Shown here in pieces: positions 1,957 to 33,246 of a stretch of DNA of 64,000 nt (position 1 is its first letter; each line of letters begins with the position of its first letter). The stretch comes from Halolamina sediminis (GTDB taxonomy: Archaea > Halobacteriota > Halobacteria > Halobacteriales > Haloferacaceae). Where the stretch lies: assembly GCF_001282785.1 (NCBI RefSeq), contig NZ_CVUA01000001.1, positions 1,736,001 to 1,800,000 of the forward strand, in the 5' to 3' direction. Position numbers and translations under genes: made by a program. Below the pieces are notes generated by a model that was not told the origin of the DNA, made no database searches, and saw only the letters and a program-made list of their open reading frames with translations.

Positions 1957-2808
1957 ATGGCACTCGCGAACCCCGACCTCACTGGCTCGACGGCGTTCAT
2001 CACCGGCACGACCCGCGGAATCGGCAAACAGCTCGCGCTCGCGCTCGCCGACCACGGCTGCAACGTCGTCTCGACGGGCAAGACGACCGACGACGACGAG
2101 ACCGAGCTCGCGGGCTCGATCGAGCAGACGGCCCGCGAGGTACGCGAGCGTGGGGCCGAGGCGATCGCGCTCGAACTCGACCTCCGCGACGAGGACCGCG
2201 TCGAGGCAATCGTCGACGAAGCGATCGACCAGTTCGGCGAGATCGACATCGTGATCAACAACGCCAGCGCGATCCAGTTGGCGAACGTCGCGGACCTGCC
2301 GGCCGACCGGTTCGACCTGCTGACCGACGTGAACGTCCGCGGCAGCCACCTCGTCGCGCACGCGTTCGCCGACCACCTCGCGGACCAGGAAGAGGCGTGG
2401 CTGCTGTCGAACTCACCGCCGATCACCACCGACCGCTCGCCCGGGAAGGCGCCGTACGCGTGGTCGAAGCTCGGGATGTCGTTCATCGCGCTGTCGCTCG
2501 CCGAGGAGCTGAAAAGCGACGGCGTCGGCTGTAACACGTTCTGGCCGGTGACGACGATCGACACCCGCGCGAGCCGCTACTTCGGGCTCGGAACCGAGGA
2601 CGACTGGCGTACCCCGGAGATCGTCTCGGACGCGGTGCTCGAGATCCTCGCACGCGACCCCGCGGAGTGTACGGGCAACAGCTTCTACGACGAGACGCTG
2701 CTGCGCGAGGCCGGCGTCACCGACTTCTCCGAGTACAACGTCACCGAGGGCGATCCGGCGCCGATGTCGGCCCGGATGTTCGACCCGGCGTTCGAGCGCG
2801 AGGCGTGA
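1957..2808 (+). CDS. Short-chain dehydrogenase/reductase (HSDL2-like)
   Basis: A 283-residue classical-type SDR. The nucleotide-binding motif TGTTRGIG appears near residue 15, the NNAS structural motif near residue 105, the catalytic serine in SNSPP, and the YAWSK (YxxxK) pair. The C-terminal half with GCNTFWPVTTIDTRA and a short acidic tail resembles hydroxysteroid-dehydrogenase-like 2 proteins. It should catalyse NAD(P)H-linked oxidoreduction of a small alcohol or carbonyl compound; the substrate cannot be read from sequence. It has its own TATA-like box and converges on the nos operon, with which it has no obvious functional link. Confidence 0.85.
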   Translation: MALANPDLTGSTAFITGTTRGIGKQLALALADHGCNVVSTGKTTDDDETELAGSIEQTAREVRERGAEAIALELDLRDEDRVEAIVDEAIDQFGEIDIVINNASAIQLANVADLPADRFDLLTDVNVRGSHLVAHAFADHLADQEEAWLLSNSPPITTDRSPGKAPYAWSKLGMSFIALSLAEELKSDGVGCNTFWPVTTIDTRASRYFGLGTEDDWRTPEIVSDAVLEILARDPAECTGNSFYDETLLREAGVTDFSEYNVTEGDPAPMSARMFDPAFEREA

Positions 2809-2894
2809 TCGGTTCCGCCACAGAAACGAGGATCAGGTAGCCTGGAACCCCGGCGGGCACGACTCGGGCGCCACAGGACGGAATTCGCGAAGGT

Positions 2895-3767
2895 TCAGAC
2901 GCTCCGGCGCCGAACCAACCGACTCGCCAGCCACGTCCCCGCGACGCTCCACGCGACCAGCGCCGCCACGAGCACCGGCATCGTCACGCCCGAGCCGACC
3001 AGCACGTCCGCCATCCCGCCGGTCACCGTCGGCACCGACTGCAGCGCGAGCACGCGAAACGCGGTGGCAGGGTTCGCGAGCACGAAGACGGCCAGCCAGT
3101 CCGGCCCCACGATGTCGGCGGCGATCAGCCCGACCGAGACGAGGTCGTGGACCAGCGCGACCCAGACCCACAGCAGCAACGCGCCGCCGAGGGCGTGGGT
3201 CTTCTCCGCTGCGAGCGTCGACAGCAGGGTCGACAGCGCGAGAAACGCCGCGCCGCCCAGTACTGCCGCACCGATGAGGCCGAGATACGCGGGGGTGAAC
3301 CGCCCCTGGGCCGCGAGCCAGAGCCCGCCGACGCCGAAGCCGGCGACGACCGCACCCGTGAACACCGCGAGCCGGCCGAGATACGTGCCGATGACGATGC
3401 GACTGCGTGGAACGGGGAGCGCAAACAGCACGCCGAGCCAGCCGGACTCGTCGCTGCCGACGACCGCGTCGTAGCCGAACAGCAGCGCGACCAGCGGGAG
3501 CAGCAGCGCCGAGAGTTCGACGAGGCTGACGACGACCGCGTCGGCGCGGACCACCCCGCCTTGCCCGCCGAGGGCGACGACGAGCACCGACAGCGAGGCG
3601 AACAGCGCCGCCAGCGCGAACGCCCAGCGATTCCGGACCGCGAGCGCGAACTCCAACCGCGCGACGGTGGCGACCTGATCGAGCGCCGACCCCTCGCTCA
3701 CCCCCGTCGGGAGGCTGAACGCGGGCTCCTCGGTGACACCCTCTTCCTCGGCGCTCACGTCGGTCAT
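2895..3767 (-). CDS. nosY: NosY: ABC-2 type permease for copper-site maturation of N2O reductase
   Basis: A 290-residue membrane protein with about six transmembrane segments after a roughly 35-residue cytoplasmic N-terminus. It shows the ABC-2 permease layout, with the first span after ARLEFALAVRNRWAF and a final span running into a basic tail RLVRRRSV. Its start overlaps the nosF stop by four bases, so it is the last gene of the nos operon. In the Nos system, NosY and NosF form the ABC transporter that works with NosD in assembling the copper-sulfide CuZ centre of NosZ. Identification rests mainly on operon position. Confidence 0.88.
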   Translation of the reverse strand: MTDVSAEEEGVTEEPAFSLPTGVSEGSALDQVATVARLEFALAVRNRWAFALAALFASLSVLVVALGGQGGVVRADAVVVSLVELSALLLPLVALLFGYDAVVGSDESGWLGVLFALPVPRSRIVIGTYLGRLAVFTGAVVAGFGVGGLWLAAQGRFTPAYLGLIGAAVLGGAAFLALSTLLSTLAAEKTHALGGALLLWVWVALVHDLVSVGLIAADIVGPDWLAVFVLANPATAFRVLALQSVPTVTGGMADVLVGSGVTMPVLVAALVAWSVAGTWLASRLVRRRSV

Positions 3768-10722: not shown

Positions 10723-10748
10723 GGACCGGGCGTTAGCAGAGAGTCGTC

Positions 10749-25311: not shown

Positions 25312-25353
25312 GCGAATCGGTCCGGCGGAGCGAGTGGTGGCTACGTATCGTCG

Positions 25354-26013
25354 TTACGTTTGTCCGCCCTCCTCGTAGGGTTGGACGATTACGAACCCCT
25401 CGGAGTCGCCGAACTCCATCTGTACCCGCTCGCCGGACTGCTGGCCGATCTCGATGGCCTTGTTCGTCCCGATCGACGGTGAGAGGTTGGCGCTCCAGGC
25501 CACGGTCGAATCGGGGTCGGTCGTGACTGGCGGCCTCATCACGACGGGGTCGCCGTGGGTTGTGATGGCCACGTCGCCGGGGCCGGTGAGGAACACGTTC
25601 GTCAGCCCGCCCGCAGCGGCTTGGGAGAGGCCGCCGACGGTACCGATCTCGTAATCGATACCCTCCTCGAAGGCGAGCACATCGGTCCCGTTGACTGAGA
25701 TCGACTCGTCGGCGTCCAACGAGAGGATCTGTACCTTCTTGCCCTGATCGGCGACGTACAGCGTCCCCGATCCTTCGGCCTCCATGATCGGTGTCCCCTC
25801 GCCGCTGACGGCGTCCTTGACGAAGCCAGCGAGACCGCCCTCGGCGGAGGATTTGCCGGTGAACGTCACGTTCCCGGTGTAGGCGATCATCGAGCCGGCT
25901 TTTACCATCGTGATTCCGTCGAAGGGGATCTCTAACAACCGTTTGTTGACTTTTCGGAAACTGTCACCGCTCGATTCGGGAGCATTGGCGTCGACGAACT
26001 CGTCGAGTTGCAT
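25354..26013 (-). CDS. AIM24 family protein
   Basis: A 219-residue soluble protein of the AIM24/TIGR00266 family, a double-stranded beta-helix fold. Characteristic segments are MVKAGSMIAYTGNVTFTGK near residue 35, the GEGTPIMEAEGSGTLYVADQGKKV core and VFLTGPGDVAITTHGDPVVM near 145. It lacks a signal peptide. Biochemical function is unclear in prokaryotes; the yeast homologue affects mitochondrial inner-membrane organisation. The start at 26013 (MQLDEF) is the only one adjacent to the conserved domain. It is followed upstream by the response regulator gene on the same strand. Confidence 0.88.
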   Translation of the reverse strand: MQLDEFVDANAPESSGDSFRKVNKRLLEIPFDGITMVKAGSMIAYTGNVTFTGKSSAEGGLAGFVKDAVSGEGTPIMEAEGSGTLYVADQGKKVQILSLDADESISVNGTDVLAFEEGIDYEIGTVGGLSQAAAGGLTNVFLTGPGDVAITTHGDPVVMRPPVTTDPDSTVAWSANLSPSIGTNKAIEIGQQSGERVQMEFGDSEGFVIVQPYEEGGQT

Positions 26014-26120
26014 TGGACACTCGTACGTAAGTTCAGTCGGAAAAAGCTCTATCTCCCTGTTTCCGTTCGTGCAACACGGCACCCACAACACGAAAGTGAG
26101 GCGCAGAGCAACAGTTCGTG

Positions 26121-26699
26121 TTACCTTCCATCACGGTCGACGCTCTCGAACTTCGCGAGCAGCGTGTCATCGTCGAGCAACCGCTGTGCCCGCCGTTCGA
26201 GGCGGGTCGCCCGCTCGCGGACCGCCTCGAACTGCTCGTGGTTCTCGCGTTGTTCGGGGCTCGTTTGGGCGGTCAACACCGTCTGTGTCGACTTCGCGCC
26301 GAAGTACTTCCCGAGAGTCTCGTAGGCGAGAATCTGCCGCTGCTGATCGACGACCGACCGAACGTCCTCACGATCAATCGGCTTACACAGGTAATCGTCG
26401 AACGGTAATTCCAACACGTCGAACTCCGGGTCGATCGCAGTCACCATCACGACACGGCCCTCGAACCCGCGCTCGGCGAGTCGAGTGAGCACCTCGTCGC
26501 CCGAGACGTCCGGCATGTGCCGATCCAGGAGGAGGATGTCGACAGGCCGGTTTTCGATGACTGAGAACGCCTCCTGCCCACCGTAGGCAGTATCCACCGT
26601 ACACTCGCCACGGAGTCGGAGCGCGTAGGCGTCGGCGACTTCCTTCTCGTCGTCAACAACGAGAACCCTCGGATCCTGATTGGTGTCGGTGTCCGCCAT
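26121..26699 (-). CDS. HalX-type response regulator
   Basis: A 192-residue two-component receiver. The acidic pocket is VVDDEKEV near residue 15, the phospho-acceptor Asp59 lies in LLLDRHMPDVSG, and the conserved Thr and Lys are in VMVTAID and CKPID. The C-terminal HalX domain (about 125-185) is a predicted helical coiled hairpin: VVDQQRQILAYETLGKYFG, then ENHEQFEAVRERATRLERR. HalX has no known DNA-binding motif and occurs in haloarchaea. Partner kinases in this window are at 19099-20070 and 27547-29244, but neither is adjacent. Confidence 0.9.
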   Translation of the reverse strand: MADTDTNQDPRVLVVDDEKEVADAYALRLRGECTVDTAYGGQEAFSVIENRPVDILLLDRHMPDVSGDEVLTRLAERGFEGRVVMVTAIDPEFDVLELPFDDYLCKPIDREDVRSVVDQQRQILAYETLGKYFGAKSTQTVLTAQTSPEQRENHEQFEAVRERATRLERRAQRLLDDDTLLAKFESVDRDGR

Positions 26700-26856
26700 G
26701 GCGGGGAATCGTAGCCCTGAGTTGCTCCCGGAGCATCATAACTGGTTCCGTTCGGCGCGTCGGGGCACCGCAGTCTGCATGGTTAGACACTGAATCGGGC
26801 GGGCGTTCCGATACTGAGCACGTCCTGCAAAGGGGTATCCGCCACACTGCAGTTGT

Positions 26857-27201
26857 ATGGCTGCACGCCTCCAACCGAGTCACGATCGCGACGAAGAGAT
26901 GGAATCCCGACCGTCGACGGCGGAGCTGCTTGACCTGTTCGGGGACGAGTACACGCGTCGGGTGTTCGAGGCAGTCTCGGAACGGCCGCGCGGCGGGCGT
27001 GCCGTCGCCGAAGAAGCGGGAGTGTCCCGAGCGACCGCCTACCGTCGGCTCAACGACCTCCAGGACGCCGGACTCGTCAGGAGCGAACAGCGGATCGCTC
27101 TCGACGGCCACCATCGTGAACAGTTCGCCGCCACCGCCCGCCACCTCTCGGTTTCGATCGAGGACGGCGATATCGAAGCGTCGATCAGTTTCACTCGGTA
27201 G
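26857..27201 (+). CDS. ArsR-type winged-helix regulator
   Basis: A 114-residue protein. STAELLDLFGDEYTRRVFEAV opens the winged-helix domain, GRAVAEEAGVSRATAYRRLNDLQ is the recognition helix region and the wing holds VRSEQRIALDGHHREQF. An ATG at 26899 would give a shorter 100-residue version starting at the conserved MESRPSTAELL. It is the same regulator class as the gene at 1242, but without an adjacent DUF7521 membrane partner. It lies between the HalX regulator and the 7TM kinase, so it may act in the same signalling group. Confidence 0.82.
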   Translation: MAARLQPSHDRDEEMESRPSTAELLDLFGDEYTRRVFEAVSERPRGGRAVAEEAGVSRATAYRRLNDLQDAGLVRSEQRIALDGHHREQFAATARHLSVSIEDGDIEASISFTR

Positions 27202-27546
27202 CGTCCCGATCGTACGGTTCCCGTCTGCCCTTCGGCGAAGATGTGATACGCAGTTCCGTTGTACCCGACGAGCCACGTCTCGTGGCGAACAGTTCGCTGC
27301 GGTCACTCCGAGTCGCGGACACGTTCTCCAGCATGGTCGTCATGACGGAGTGTTCGTCGCATCCCGGCTCAGCGGTCATCGACTTCTCGTCAGGGGTCTC
27401 TACTGCCGTCCCTACTCCATATCGAGGACGACGGATGGGTTAAGCACTGCCGGTGAGGGGGACCGAGAGGAGGACAGCCCCGCTCGTGAGGACGTTGCGG
27501 CGTCGCATATCAGCCTCCACCAACGCACCGGTGAATGTTTTCCGCA
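27202..27546. other. Intergenic stretch without a recognised gene
   Basis: A small minus-strand frame (27191-27379) overlaps the preceding gene's end and has no recognisable domain. I see no repeat or RNA signature. Confidence 0.45.
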
Positions 27547-29244
27547 TCATCCGTCTCCCTCGGTCGTCCCGGTGCCGTCGGACTCGTCGTCCGACGAGTT
27601 CGAGATCGAAGACGTACCAGCGCCGTGGAACGAGACGACGACGACGGTTCCGTCGGCGTCGGCGCGCTCGAACTCGAGTTCTGCACCGAGTTGATTGACT
27701 GCCCAGTTAACGAACCAGAGGCCGACACCGAGCCCGTGTTCGAGTTGAGTTTCGCCCGACCCGGTCAACAGTTCGCGTTCGCGATCGGGGATGCCCGGGC
27801 CGTCATCGGTGACACGGAGTCTCGGCGTGCCGTCGGCAGTCCTGTCCACGTCGATCTCGACCCGAGCGGGGTCGCTCGAGTGGACGATCCCGTTCTCGAC
27901 GAGTTCGGTCACGAGCCGGCGGACGACCGTGGGTTGGGAGGCGATACAGAGGTGGTCCGGCCCCTGGACCGAGACGCTGTCCTCGGGGTACTCCTCACGG
28001 GCGGTCGTGGCGACTTCACGGGCAACGGACACGAGGTCGACCGGTGATGGTGAATCGCTGCTGTCGGTCATCAACGCCTCGGCATCGCGAGCTTTCCGGC
28101 TGGTCGACGCCAGATCGGCCGCACTCTCTCGAATCGCCCTGCGATGGGTCCCCTCGGCGATGTGATCGGCGTGAGCGAGGATCACGTCGAGCTTGTTCCG
28201 GAGGTTGTGTCTGAGCACGCGATTGAGAACGGAGAGCCGTTGCTCGCGGGTCTGCTGATCGGTCACGTCTCGGAGCACCACGGCTCTAGCGACCGGGTCG
28301 CCCCCCTCGTCACCCTCGACGGCGGAGACGGTGAACTGGAACTGCCGGTACCCCTTCGCAGTTCGGAGGGCGGTCACCCCGGTCGATCCGGGGGACAGGT
28401 CAGCGCCGTCGATACCGTCGACGATCGACGCCACAGGCGTGTCGATCATGGCCCGCGTGGATCGGTTGAACAGTTCTTCGGCGGTCACGTTCGCGTCGAG
28501 GACGTGACCATCCCAGTCGACGACGATGACGGCCTCCTGCAGCGCTTCGACGACTCGTGACCGGGCGACGTAGTCCGCCTTCGGGAACCCTGTCAGTACG
28601 GGATACTGCCGGAGCGCGAACAAAAGCAATACGCCGGAGAGGAGCAGGCCGGCCGTCACGCCGTCGACGATGTGATTACCGTCGCGCCACGTCCCGACGA
28701 CGTACGGCGCCGAGACGGCCCCGACCTGGACCAGCAGCTGCCCTTTCGAGATGCGCGCGTGGTTCCAGCCGTATCTGAGAAAGACGAATCCCGCATAGAC
28801 GTACACCACGAACAACAGCATCAGTTCAGTCCCGGCGAGTGACGCCAGGGAGCGCTGAACCTCCTCCATAGAGGGATCACCGTTGAACGTGATCGCCGCG
28901 CCGACGAGGGGGAGCGCGAGGAGAACGAACATCGCGATCCGCGGACGTGTCAGTCCAGTACCGCGGCCGGTGTAGCCGAGTACGTAGACCAGCCAGACCG
29001 CGGGGATGAAGACGATCGGTAGGACCTGTACGATCGCGGCCCTTCCCGAGCCGACGGACCAGGCGTGTGGAAGCTCGGAGACCAACGACAGGAGGGCCCA
29101 CAGCAGGAGCCCACCGGTCAGAGCGACGAATGGGGCCGCGTTCGGCCGGGTCCGGTCATCAACGGCCCGCCACGTTGCCCACGCCAACAGTGCGACGGCA
29201 ACGACGTCGGCGGCGATCGAGGCCGAAAGCACGAGGATCCTCAT
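27547..29244 (-). CDS. 7TM-PAS sensor histidine kinase
   Basis: A 565-residue membrane kinase. Residues 1-213 form seven membrane helices of the histidine-kinase N-terminal 7TM type. A PAS domain (about 225-335) with VVEALQEAVIVVDWDGHVLDAN follows, then the H-box NRVLRHNLRNKLDVI with His346. The HATPase has LVTELVENGIVHS (N-box), DDGPGIP (G1) and LGVGLWFVNW (G2). The tail of about 25 residues is Ser/Asp/Gly-rich. It should sense a membrane or extracellular signal. The HRNLRN-type H-box is typical of haloarchaeal kinases. A small membrane protein gene precedes it. Confidence 0.92.
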   Translation of the reverse strand: MRILVLSASIAADVVAVALLAWATWRAVDDRTRPNAAPFVALTGGLLLWALLSLVSELPHAWSVGSGRAAIVQVLPIVFIPAVWLVYVLGYTGRGTGLTRPRIAMFVLLALPLVGAAITFNGDPSMEEVQRSLASLAGTELMLLFVVYVYAGFVFLRYGWNHARISKGQLLVQVGAVSAPYVVGTWRDGNHIVDGVTAGLLLSGVLLLFALRQYPVLTGFPKADYVARSRVVEALQEAVIVVDWDGHVLDANVTAEELFNRSTRAMIDTPVASIVDGIDGADLSPGSTGVTALRTAKGYRQFQFTVSAVEGDEGGDPVARAVVLRDVTDQQTREQRLSVLNRVLRHNLRNKLDVILAHADHIAEGTHRRAIRESAADLASTSRKARDAEALMTDSSDSPSPVDLVSVAREVATTAREEYPEDSVSVQGPDHLCIASQPTVVRRLVTELVENGIVHSSDPARVEIDVDRTADGTPRLRVTDDGPGIPDRERELLTGSGETQLEHGLGVGLWFVNWAVNQLGAELEFERADADGTVVVVSFHGAGTSSISNSSDDESDGTGTTEGDG

Positions 29245-29668: not shown

Positions 29669-29940
29669 ACCGATGCTTCCTGCCAGGTGGCGTTTAACCA
29701 TTGGAGGCCTGTTTCAGGGTTAGAGACATGGACTGTTTCAGGTAGGGAAACGCTACACTCCAATACTTCCCTGCTGCACGCCGAGTTGCACCTGCCCGTC
29801 GTCGCGAACGACGGGTCGCAGTCCACCGGCCCCTCCCCCTCGGCCCTCCCCCCTCGCCCGAACCGTCCGGTCGGTCGTCCCAGTACGTCGCGACCCCCCG
29901 TGGGCGACAGCGTTCGCACAGCTGCAACTGGCCTTGAAGA
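29669..29940. other. Degenerate intergenic DNA before the polymerase fragment
   Basis: No intact gene is seen. Two imperfect CTGTTTCAGG units near 29710 and 29732 stand out, but nothing CRISPR-like continues from them. Confidence 0.45.
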
Positions 29941-29942
29941 TG

Positions 29943-30108
29943 CCCGAGTTCGACCCGGAATCGTACCTCCAGGCCACTGGAAGGCTACTCACAGAATACC
30001 CAGAACGTGGCCGCCTTGAATCGAGCCCGCGAGCCGGACCTACCAGTCCACCCGGGTCAGGATATCGAGTACGTGGTCGTCGACGACGAGAAATCCGGAC
30101 ATGCCCGG
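29943..30108 (+). pseudogene. Fragment of a family B DNA polymerase C-terminus
   Basis: In one frame the translation is TRNRTSRPLEGYSQNTQNV, then AALNRAREPDLPVHPGQDIE and YVVVDDEKSGHA. This matches the C-terminal thumb-region pattern of haloarchaeal PolB-type polymerases (a VSKPLxxY block, a VAALxRA helix and PGQDVEYVVVDDxxS). A stop precedes it, and it breaks off at about 30108 before the usual RVRLAHE continuation. Only about 55 codons of a roughly 800-residue enzyme remain. It lies against the orc1/cdc6 remnant on the other strand. Confidence 0.6.
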
Positions 30109-30142
30109 GGGTGGAGAGTTGAGGTGAAAGAATCTAACGTCG

Positions 30143-30545
30143 CTACCCACGTTTCTGCTGTTCGTTCAACCAATTCTTCGCGAGCTCGTTGAAGTCGACG
30201 TCGTCGAACCGGGAGACAGCTTCGAGGACGTCGGTAGCCGTCGACGGCTCGACGCGGAGCCCGAACGTGTAGGCCTCGCCGCCGACGGAGCCAGACAGAC
30301 TTGCGTGCGCGGATGATGCTCAGCATGTCGAGCTCGAGTAAGCGATCACGCATCCGACGGTGGCAAGTTGGTCGGCATCGTGTGGTCTGACAGCGAGTTA
30401 TACACGTCATAGACATCGCGAGTCCGGATCCCGGAATGCCCCCCGAGTTCGAGGATCGTCACGGCAGCCAGTGCGAGGTGCCCCTGTGTCGTAAGTTGTT
30501 CTATCCCCTCGATGATGAGCTCGCGCTCAGCTTCGCTCAACGGCC
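30143..30545 (-). pseudogene. Frameshifted C-terminal remnant of orc1/cdc6 replication initiator
   Basis: Reading leftwards, three consecutive segments in different frames rebuild an Orc1/Cdc6 C-terminus. The first is LSEAERELIIEGIEQLTTQG and LALAAVTILELGGHSGIRTRD (30540-30349). The second is RMRDRLLELDMLSII (about 30360-30310). The third is GSVGGEAYTFGLRVEPSTAT and DVLEAVSRFDDVDFNELAK (about 30300-30150), ending in a stop at 30143. The LTTxGHLxLAA, VYxxYNS and winged-helix MRDxLxELDMLxI patterns are those of haloarchaeal Orc1. The AAA+ domain is absent and two frameshifts break the rest, so it is dead. Confidence 0.72.
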
Positions 30546-31582
30546 ACGAGCCGCTCGTTGTTCGACGCGTAGACGAACTCGTCTCCCACGGCGACCGATC
30601 CAACGGTACTGTCCGTGTCGACCGTCCACTTCGTTTCCCCGGTAAGCGAGAACGCGTACAGGGTATTGTCGTTCGAGCCGGCGTACACGGTCCCGTCGTC
30701 GACCACCGGCTCGTACACGCTCCGATTGTCGGCGGTGAACGACCACCGCTCGGATCCGTCCTGCCGGCTTCGGGAGACTAGCCGTCCGCTGTCACGGCCG
30801 TTACAGCCGAGGTAGATCGCGTCCGTGTCGACGACGGGACGCGTCCCGCGTTTCAGTGACGGCGTCTCGACGTTCCACAGTATGGCTCCGTCCTCGATAT
30901 CCAGCGCGAGCAATCGTCCCTCACGACCCGGGACCGGCGCGGTTGCCACGTAGACGACTCCATCGGCGATCGTCGGACTCCGAGTTTCGGTCTCGGTCCG
31001 ATATGTCCACCGTTGCTCGCCGTCGGTGTCGAACGCGGTGACGACGCCGTCGGCTCGGTTCGTGAAGACGACGACATCCTCCGTGGCTGCCAGTCTGGTG
31101 AGGCGTTCGCCATCCGTGGGCACGCGCCATTCTATATCTCCCCCGTCGGCGTCGATGGCGAGCAAGTCGTCGCCGTTCGCGTACACCCGCCCCCCGTTGA
31201 CGGTTACGCCCGATCTGAGCGGAGAGTCGACTGACCATACCTGCTCCCCGTCCGACCGACGAAGGGCACGGAGTCCGTCGCACGCCGAGACGTAGACCCG
31301 ACGATCGTCGACGGCGAGTTCACTGCGGAGACAGAGACGTTCGTCGAAGTTGTCTTCTTCGTAGGCGACCGTCCACTGGTCGCTTCCATCGGTCGGCGAC
31401 AGTGCATAGAGTGTCAGCCGATCGAGGATGTAGATCGTTCCGTCGTTGAGAAGGGGCGTCCCAGAGACCTGTCGCTGCCATTCGACGCGATCACTGGCCG
31501 GGCCTGACTGGCCGATACACCCGGCACCGAGACCGACAAGGAGGGTACCGACGGACTGGAGGGTAACTCTACGGGAGACCAT
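30527..31582 (-). CDS. PQQ-type beta-propeller lipoprotein
   Basis: A 351-residue secreted protein. MVSRRVTLQSVGTLLVGLGAGC gives a signal with lipobox at Cys22. The rest is about seven beta-propeller blades with the PQQ-repeat pattern, e.g. GTIYILDRLTLYALSPTDGS, RVYVSACDGLRALRRSDGEQ and GTVYAGSNDNTLYAFSLTGE. No pyrroloquinoline-binding cysteine pair is evident, so it probably acts as a surface scaffold like other haloarchaeal PQQ-like proteins. A TATA-like TTAAAATA lies 28 nt upstream. Its 3' end overlaps the first codons of the orc1 remnant, implying the remnant was joined here secondarily. Confidence 0.85.
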   Translation of the reverse strand: MVSRRVTLQSVGTLLVGLGAGCIGQSGPASDRVEWQRQVSGTPLLNDGTIYILDRLTLYALSPTDGSDQWTVAYEEDNFDERLCLRSELAVDDRRVYVSACDGLRALRRSDGEQVWSVDSPLRSGVTVNGGRVYANGDDLLAIDADGGDIEWRVPTDGERLTRLAATEDVVVFTNRADGVVTAFDTDGEQRWTYRTETETRSPTIADGVVYVATAPVPGREGRLLALDIEDGAILWNVETPSLKRGTRPVVDTDAIYLGCNGRDSGRLVSRSRQDGSERWSFTADNRSVYEPVVDDGTVYAGSNDNTLYAFSLTGETKWTVDTDSTVGSVAVGDEFVYASNNERLVAVERS

Positions 31583-32756: not shown

Positions 32757-33070
32757 GTATTTAACTATATTCTACCAACATAAGTAACTTCGCGGATCCC
32801 TTTTGAGTATAAATGTCGTATGTTGTATGATTATCAGGACTTTTCTTTCGGATGGTAGAATCCTTGACGGTCAATATAGACAACCGTACTTAGGGACTGG
32901 TGTCCGAAAACAGTCAACAGAATTAGTACCTACACTCAGCATCATCAGACAAAACCCTGTACTGGTACAGGATACCATTCAGGTATCGACTGAAATATAT
33001 CGGCGCATTGAGGGAGGGTAGTTAAGGTAGGGCCTCTCTACTGCCAATTATTGTGCAGTACGGAAAGAAA
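32757..33070. other. AT-rich intergenic stretch beside the tRNA
   Basis: A TATAAAT-type sequence near 32810 and a 72-codon plus-strand frame are visible, but the frame has no recognisable domain. The base composition is the most AT-rich in the window and ends at the 3' end of tRNA-Trp. Confidence 0.45.
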
Positions 33071-33246
33071 TGGGGACGGAGGGATTTGAACCCCCGATCG
33101 ACTGATATCTCCGGTGCGCCTCGGTCCTCCAGAGGGTCGTCGTCGCCGGCGATGATCAGTCGCCGACTCGGTATATCAGTCTGGAGTTCGTCACCGGGCG
33201 CGTGGCCTCTGGAGTCAGTCGCCATCCCGGGCTTGGCCACGTCCCC
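33071..33246 (-). tRNA. tRNA-Trp (CCA) with 102-nt intron
   Basis: The 5' exon (33246-33209, 38 nt) starts GGGGACGTGGCCAAGCCCGG and ends CTCCAG with anticodon CCA. The 3' exon (33106-33071, 36 nt) has the T-arm GGGGGTTCAAATCCC and ends CGTCCCC plus discriminator A. Acceptor GGGGACG pairs with CGTCCCC, and anticodon stem ACTGA pairs with TCAGT. The intron interrupts position 37/38, the usual archaeal site, and contains C/D-box-like elements (GTGACGA at 33194-33188 and CTGA at 33179-33176 and 33159-33156). Haloarchaeal tRNA-Trp introns are known to act as box C/D guides methylating their own tRNA. Confidence 0.95.
33107..33208 (-). ncRNA. Box C/D guide-like RNA within the tRNA-Trp intron
   Basis: The 102-nt intron holds a C-box-like GTGACGA and two CTGA boxes. 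In Haloferax the equivalent intron guides 2'-O-methylation of nucleotides 34 and 39 of tRNA-Trp. The boxes here are imperfect, so the exact guide pairing is an inference. Confidence 0.6.

Follow-up and report, generated by a model that had tools for sequence, protein, structure and literature searches.

A decayed orc1/cdc6 relic with one origin-box-like repeat beside tRNA-Trp in the chromosome of Halolamina sediminis

The stretch of DNA that we analyzed (64,000 nucleotides of the Halolamina sediminis genome; contig NZ_CVUA01000001.1, positions 1,736,001 to 1,800,000; here called the window, whose numbering is used throughout) contains a degraded replication initiator gene. The relic, its neighbors, and the tRNA gene at the edge of this region are arranged as follows.

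25353 to 29239, minus strand: genes for AIM24, a response regulator, and a sensor kinase (AIM24, HATPase_c, and HisKA_7TM domains)
29863 to 29963, strand not assigned: fragment of a dispersed, partly plasmid-borne sequence with several copies in two congeners
29956 to 30096, plus strand: fragment of a plasmid-type family B DNA polymerase (polB) gene, open (RNRTSRPLEGYSQNTQNVAALNRAREPDLPVHPGQDIEYVVVDDEKS)
30097 to 30113, minus strand: retained origin-box-like repeat, CACCCCCGGGCATGTCC in the coding sense, 29 nt past the stop of the relic
30143 to 30534, minus strand: orc1/cdc6 C-terminal relic (winged-helix domain and tail), from a Cdc6_C match and alignment to intact copies
30527 to 31582, minus strand: intact PQQ-type beta-propeller gene (PQQ_2, E = 1.5e-41), whose stop codon runs into the beginning of the orc1 relic
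33071 to 33246, minus strand: tRNA-Trp(CCA) containing an intron of 102 nt, from ARAGORN run with introns permitted and from the Rfam tRNA model

The relic is the C-terminal third of an Orc1/Cdc6 gene; the AAA+ domain and the lid, which domain searches placed in intact relatives such as the copy in congener G002, are gone. Translation of 30100 to 30620 in the three minus frames recovered the Orc1/Cdc6 C-terminal segments described in the initial annotation, which had named a failed profile search as the result that would overturn it. The joined translation did match the Pfam Cdc6_C model (E = 3.6e-12; 46.5 bits against a score cut-off of 25.1 bits; model positions 2 to 93 of 96), and the proposed winged-helix domain is thus confirmed. 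When the whole genome was searched in six frames with the same model, two pieces of the relic were recovered without joining (E = 3.5e-4 and 0.17). At the DNA level, the relic was 79 to 82% identical to intact plasmid genes over up to 402 bp, and since these matches reach an E value of 2e-101, a chance likeness to orc1 is excluded. In DNA alignments with intact family copies, identity was 78 to 85%.

Compared with the intact copies, the relic has lost 1 bp at ~30380/30381, 1 bp at ~30362/30363, and 2 bp at ~30295/30296, and it therefore consists of four collinear pieces in three frames. The initial annotation was right about the collinearity and the shifted frames but counted three segments rather than four. 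It also placed the relic at 30143 to 30545; the lower end coincides with the stop codon (30143 to 30145), whereas orc1 homology reaches only ~30534, ~390 bp upstream of that stop, where it merges with the stop of the PQQ gene. The AAA+ domain is missing, as had been noted, and the intact beta-propeller gene stands upstream in its place. The relic thus retains a winged helix but not the in-frame AAA+ domain and lid of a functional initiator.

Intact relatives of this orc1 family are found on large plasmids. On plasmids, the nine genes that match most closely reside on megaplasmids of 138 to 706 kb and, where annotated, are labeled AAA family ATPase or Cdc6-like. Megaplasmids carrying the intact gene include pHLAC01, DL31 phalar01, Haloarcula sinaiiensis pHsi540, and Halolamina sp. 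CBA1230 pCBA1230-01, and plasmid-borne intact orthologues were recovered from Halorubrum, DL31, Haloarcula, Halostella, Halolamina, Halopenitus, and Halobaculum. Of the six congeners compared, G002 and G006 have complete orthologues; one is on the 254-kb plasmid of CBA1230. Near-complete copies at 82% identity or above occur in roughly a dozen of 171 Haloferacaceae genomes. No complete copy of the relic's orc1 was found in the H. sediminis genome itself, though other orc1-type genes are present.

Over its C-terminal third, the relic belongs to the same gene family as HLAC_RS16365 (pHLAC01), Halar_0639 (DL31), and B4589_RS15970 (pCBA1230-01), but unlike these it lacks the AAA+ domain, the lid, and the upstream boxes and carries three frame-breaking deletions. 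Another Haloferacaceae genome also has a partial family copy (G143:C3:2949242-2949748; residues 239 to 407, 81% identity), which keeps a different part of the gene than the relic does. On a Halobaculum marinum plasmid (L080 2471-3834), the orc1 orthologue is broken into two annotated genes, indicating that the family decays elsewhere too. Outside the window, a second orc1/cdc6-like gene of the H. sediminis genome (G000:C1:2539811-2540670; L081 ~2310-3190) appears frameshifted: one frame encodes the AAA+ domain and the beginning of the lid, another the remainder of the lid plus a weak C-terminal match.

Decay of the relic appears to be recent. Differences from the G002 gene, the nearest intact copy (84.7% identical), number 5, 5, and 49 at first, second, and third codon positions, respectively; because they fall mostly at third positions, they show the pattern of a gene kept under selection until recently. 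Where four intact copies agree, the changes private to the relic are distributed as 3, 5, and 6 over the three positions, which fits some evolution after release from constraint.

Homology to the intact copies continues downstream of the relic as far as 30097 to 30113, and a search for origin repeat boxes nearby, as had been suggested, found one origin-box-like repeat at precisely this place. The intact orc1 genes of the family have several copies of a box (approximate consensus CCCCACCCCCGGGGTTGTCCGCAATT) around them, mostly upstream. Their downstream box lies 30 nt past the stop in both G002 and pHLAC01, the same position as that of the relic box, and 16 nt and 38 nt past the stop in CBA1230 and Halopenitus, respectively. 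The relic box agrees with the 17-nt family core at 15 of 17 positions (2 mismatches), and in shuffled windows the ambiguous box pattern with up to one mismatch has an expected count of 0.00. The repeat therefore both fits the family core and sits at the orthologous offset.

Intact relatives that we examined carry two to six boxes and the relic region carries one. No further origin boxes were detected within the 64-kb window, and genome-wide the only other candidate was one weak match at 2498858. The arrangement expected of an origin, several G-rich and usually inverted boxes beside an initiator gene, is thus absent from the relic region. The G-rich boxes of haloarchaea go with individual Orc families and in some cases flank the gene on both sides; box sequence and Orc family show linkage specificity (PMC3528665). 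A lone box that has lost its cognate initiator and its partner boxes would not be expected to fire.

The pieces on either side of the relic also resemble plasmid DNA. Over its 141 bp, the polB fragment shares 87 to 94% identity with type B DNA polymerase genes carried by many haloarchaeal plasmids; a Pfam search with the fragment alone gave no match, and its assignment rests on this DNA identity. We considered whether it could instead be a remnant of the chromosomal polymerase gene found at this site in four congeners and rejected that origin, as the congener copies match over only 34 to 45 bp. The adjoining fragment at 29863 to 29963 is 77 to 83% identical to places in contig 3 (253 kb) of G006 and in G003. 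On the other side of the relic, the beta-propeller gene is 87.5% identical to a gene on a 221.5-kb plasmid of Haloplanus sp. GX21, beside which no orc1 is annotated. The genes at 25353 to 29239 are collinear with the 254-kb plasmid of CBA1230 in three blocks (79 to 84% identity), with order and strand kept.

The tRNA-Trp gene was missed by a default tRNA search and found once introns were allowed. It forms the edge of a conserved backbone, which runs from 33065-33070 upwards in all six congeners. At the site itself, G002, G003, G004, and G006 have a family B polymerase gene (a 786-residue open frame in G004) and a second gene, and this different gene content marks the neighborhood of tRNA-Trp as a variable region. 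In the comparison of window positions 10724 to 33066, four of the six congeners had a polB gene with a ~230-amino-acid partner; the H. sediminis genome lacks this congener-type pair at the site and has a single PolB match genome-wide. A 12.3-kb insert also sits at tRNA-Trp in G003 (L066 5445-17772). It comes with a second copy of ~21 bp of the tRNA end and has a tyrosine-integrase-like gene beside the left of these copies and a rolling-circle Rep-like gene at its opposite end; this insert looks like a provirus or integrated plasmid. In H. sediminis, the tRNA-Trp end is present as a single copy in both the window and the genome (up to 3 mismatches allowed), so the direct repeats of a plasmid integrated at a tRNA are lacking here, and no integrase beside the relic was noticed among the open reading frames of the window.

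Taken as a whole, the relic is very probably the dead remnant of a megaplasmid replicator-initiator unit, left in plasmid DNA that was taken into the variable region beside tRNA-Trp. The original proposal of a relic of an origin or of an integrated replicon remains the best reading, given that the intact genes are on megaplasmids, that one box is retained, and that the neighbors are of plasmid type. A plasmid with an orc1/cdc6 gene and its own box family would have given DNA to the Halolamina chromosome beside tRNA-Trp. A rearrangement would then have taken away the 5′ two thirds of orc1, including the AAA+ domain, the lid, and the upstream boxes, and in the same step have fused the remainder to the end of the beta-propeller gene; another would have joined the downstream side of orc1 to the polB fragment, after which three small deletions presumably broke the remaining frame. 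Both the entry of plasmid DNA into the chromosome at this place and the order of events are inferred, and the PQQ junction may already have arisen on a plasmid, ahead of chromosomal entry. Going by the sequence, the relic would make no initiator and the single box would be no origin, so that function is most likely absent.

The remnant need not imply that one whole replicon was integrated. The att duplication that such an event predicts is missing, and since the neighboring fragments resemble different plasmids, they may stem from different sources. It is possible, though we favor the megaplasmid remnant, that pieces of several plasmids (the dispersed repeat, polB, orc1, and the beta-propeller gene) were joined in succession, in part at short stretches of shared sequence, and that the orc1 relic was never part of one integrated replicon here. 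Three successive junctions within 700 bp and the location of the pieces' closest relatives on different plasmids speak for this account, as do ~13 nt at the PQQ/orc1 junction (GCGAAGCTGAGCG) that match orc1 at 13 of 13 positions and the GX21 propeller gene at 11 of 13. Microhomology-mediated end joining is reported for Haloferax volcanii (PMC7521656), and the term also occurs in PMC2700283. However, the fit of the PQQ/orc1 junction to joining at a short shared sequence is no more than suggestive, just about 3 nt are common at the polB/orc1 junction, and the collinearity of 25353 to 29239 with one congener plasmid that also bears orc1 favors the transfer of larger blocks. The broader idea that the tRNA-Trp region is a place where broken plasmid pieces are stitched together by short-homology end joining, with the relic a record of repair rather than of single-replicon integration, is tentative and somewhat improbable.

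It seems unlikely that a single plasmid or provirus inserted site-specifically at the 3′ end of tRNA-Trp and that its replication genes decayed afterwards. The island edge does lie near the tRNA-Trp 3′ end, and the G003 insert, with its duplicated tRNA end and integrase-like gene, looks like an example of such an event at the same site. Nevertheless, a sharp edge is no surprise here in any case, given how little the intergenic DNA next to the tRNA is conserved among the congeners, and in H. sediminis the tRNA end occurs once, with no integrase noticed beside the relic. A sequencing or assembly error in an intact gene is extremely improbable: indels of 1 to 2 bp are a typical type of error, but two thirds of the gene are missing, with a complete and different gene in their place. 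We therefore rejected sequencing error as an explanation for the relic as a whole.

The remnant of a megaplasmid replicator-initiator unit has precedents. In Haloarcula, orc/cdc6 origins are described as having been gained, disrupted, and lost in variable regions of the chromosome (Wu et al. 2012, PMC3528665; 2014, PMC4441112), and deficient origins that keep one box on a side have been described as well (PMC3528665, PMC4441112). Like the relic, such deficient or disrupted origins, oriC3-cdc6D of Haloarcula hispanica among them, were acquired in a variable region and then disrupted, with one box remaining in an intergenic region (PMC3528665, PMC4441112). In contrast to oriC3-cdc6D, the gene itself is truncated and frameshifted in H. 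sediminis, and no transposase was seen at the break. The relic is thus a clear new example of a published process, of low surprise, and a snapshot of haloarchaeal chromosomes gaining and losing replicator-initiator units. It supports, without changing, the published idea that variable regions gain and lose additional origins, and it points to a box sequence linked to this orc1 family on megaplasmids.
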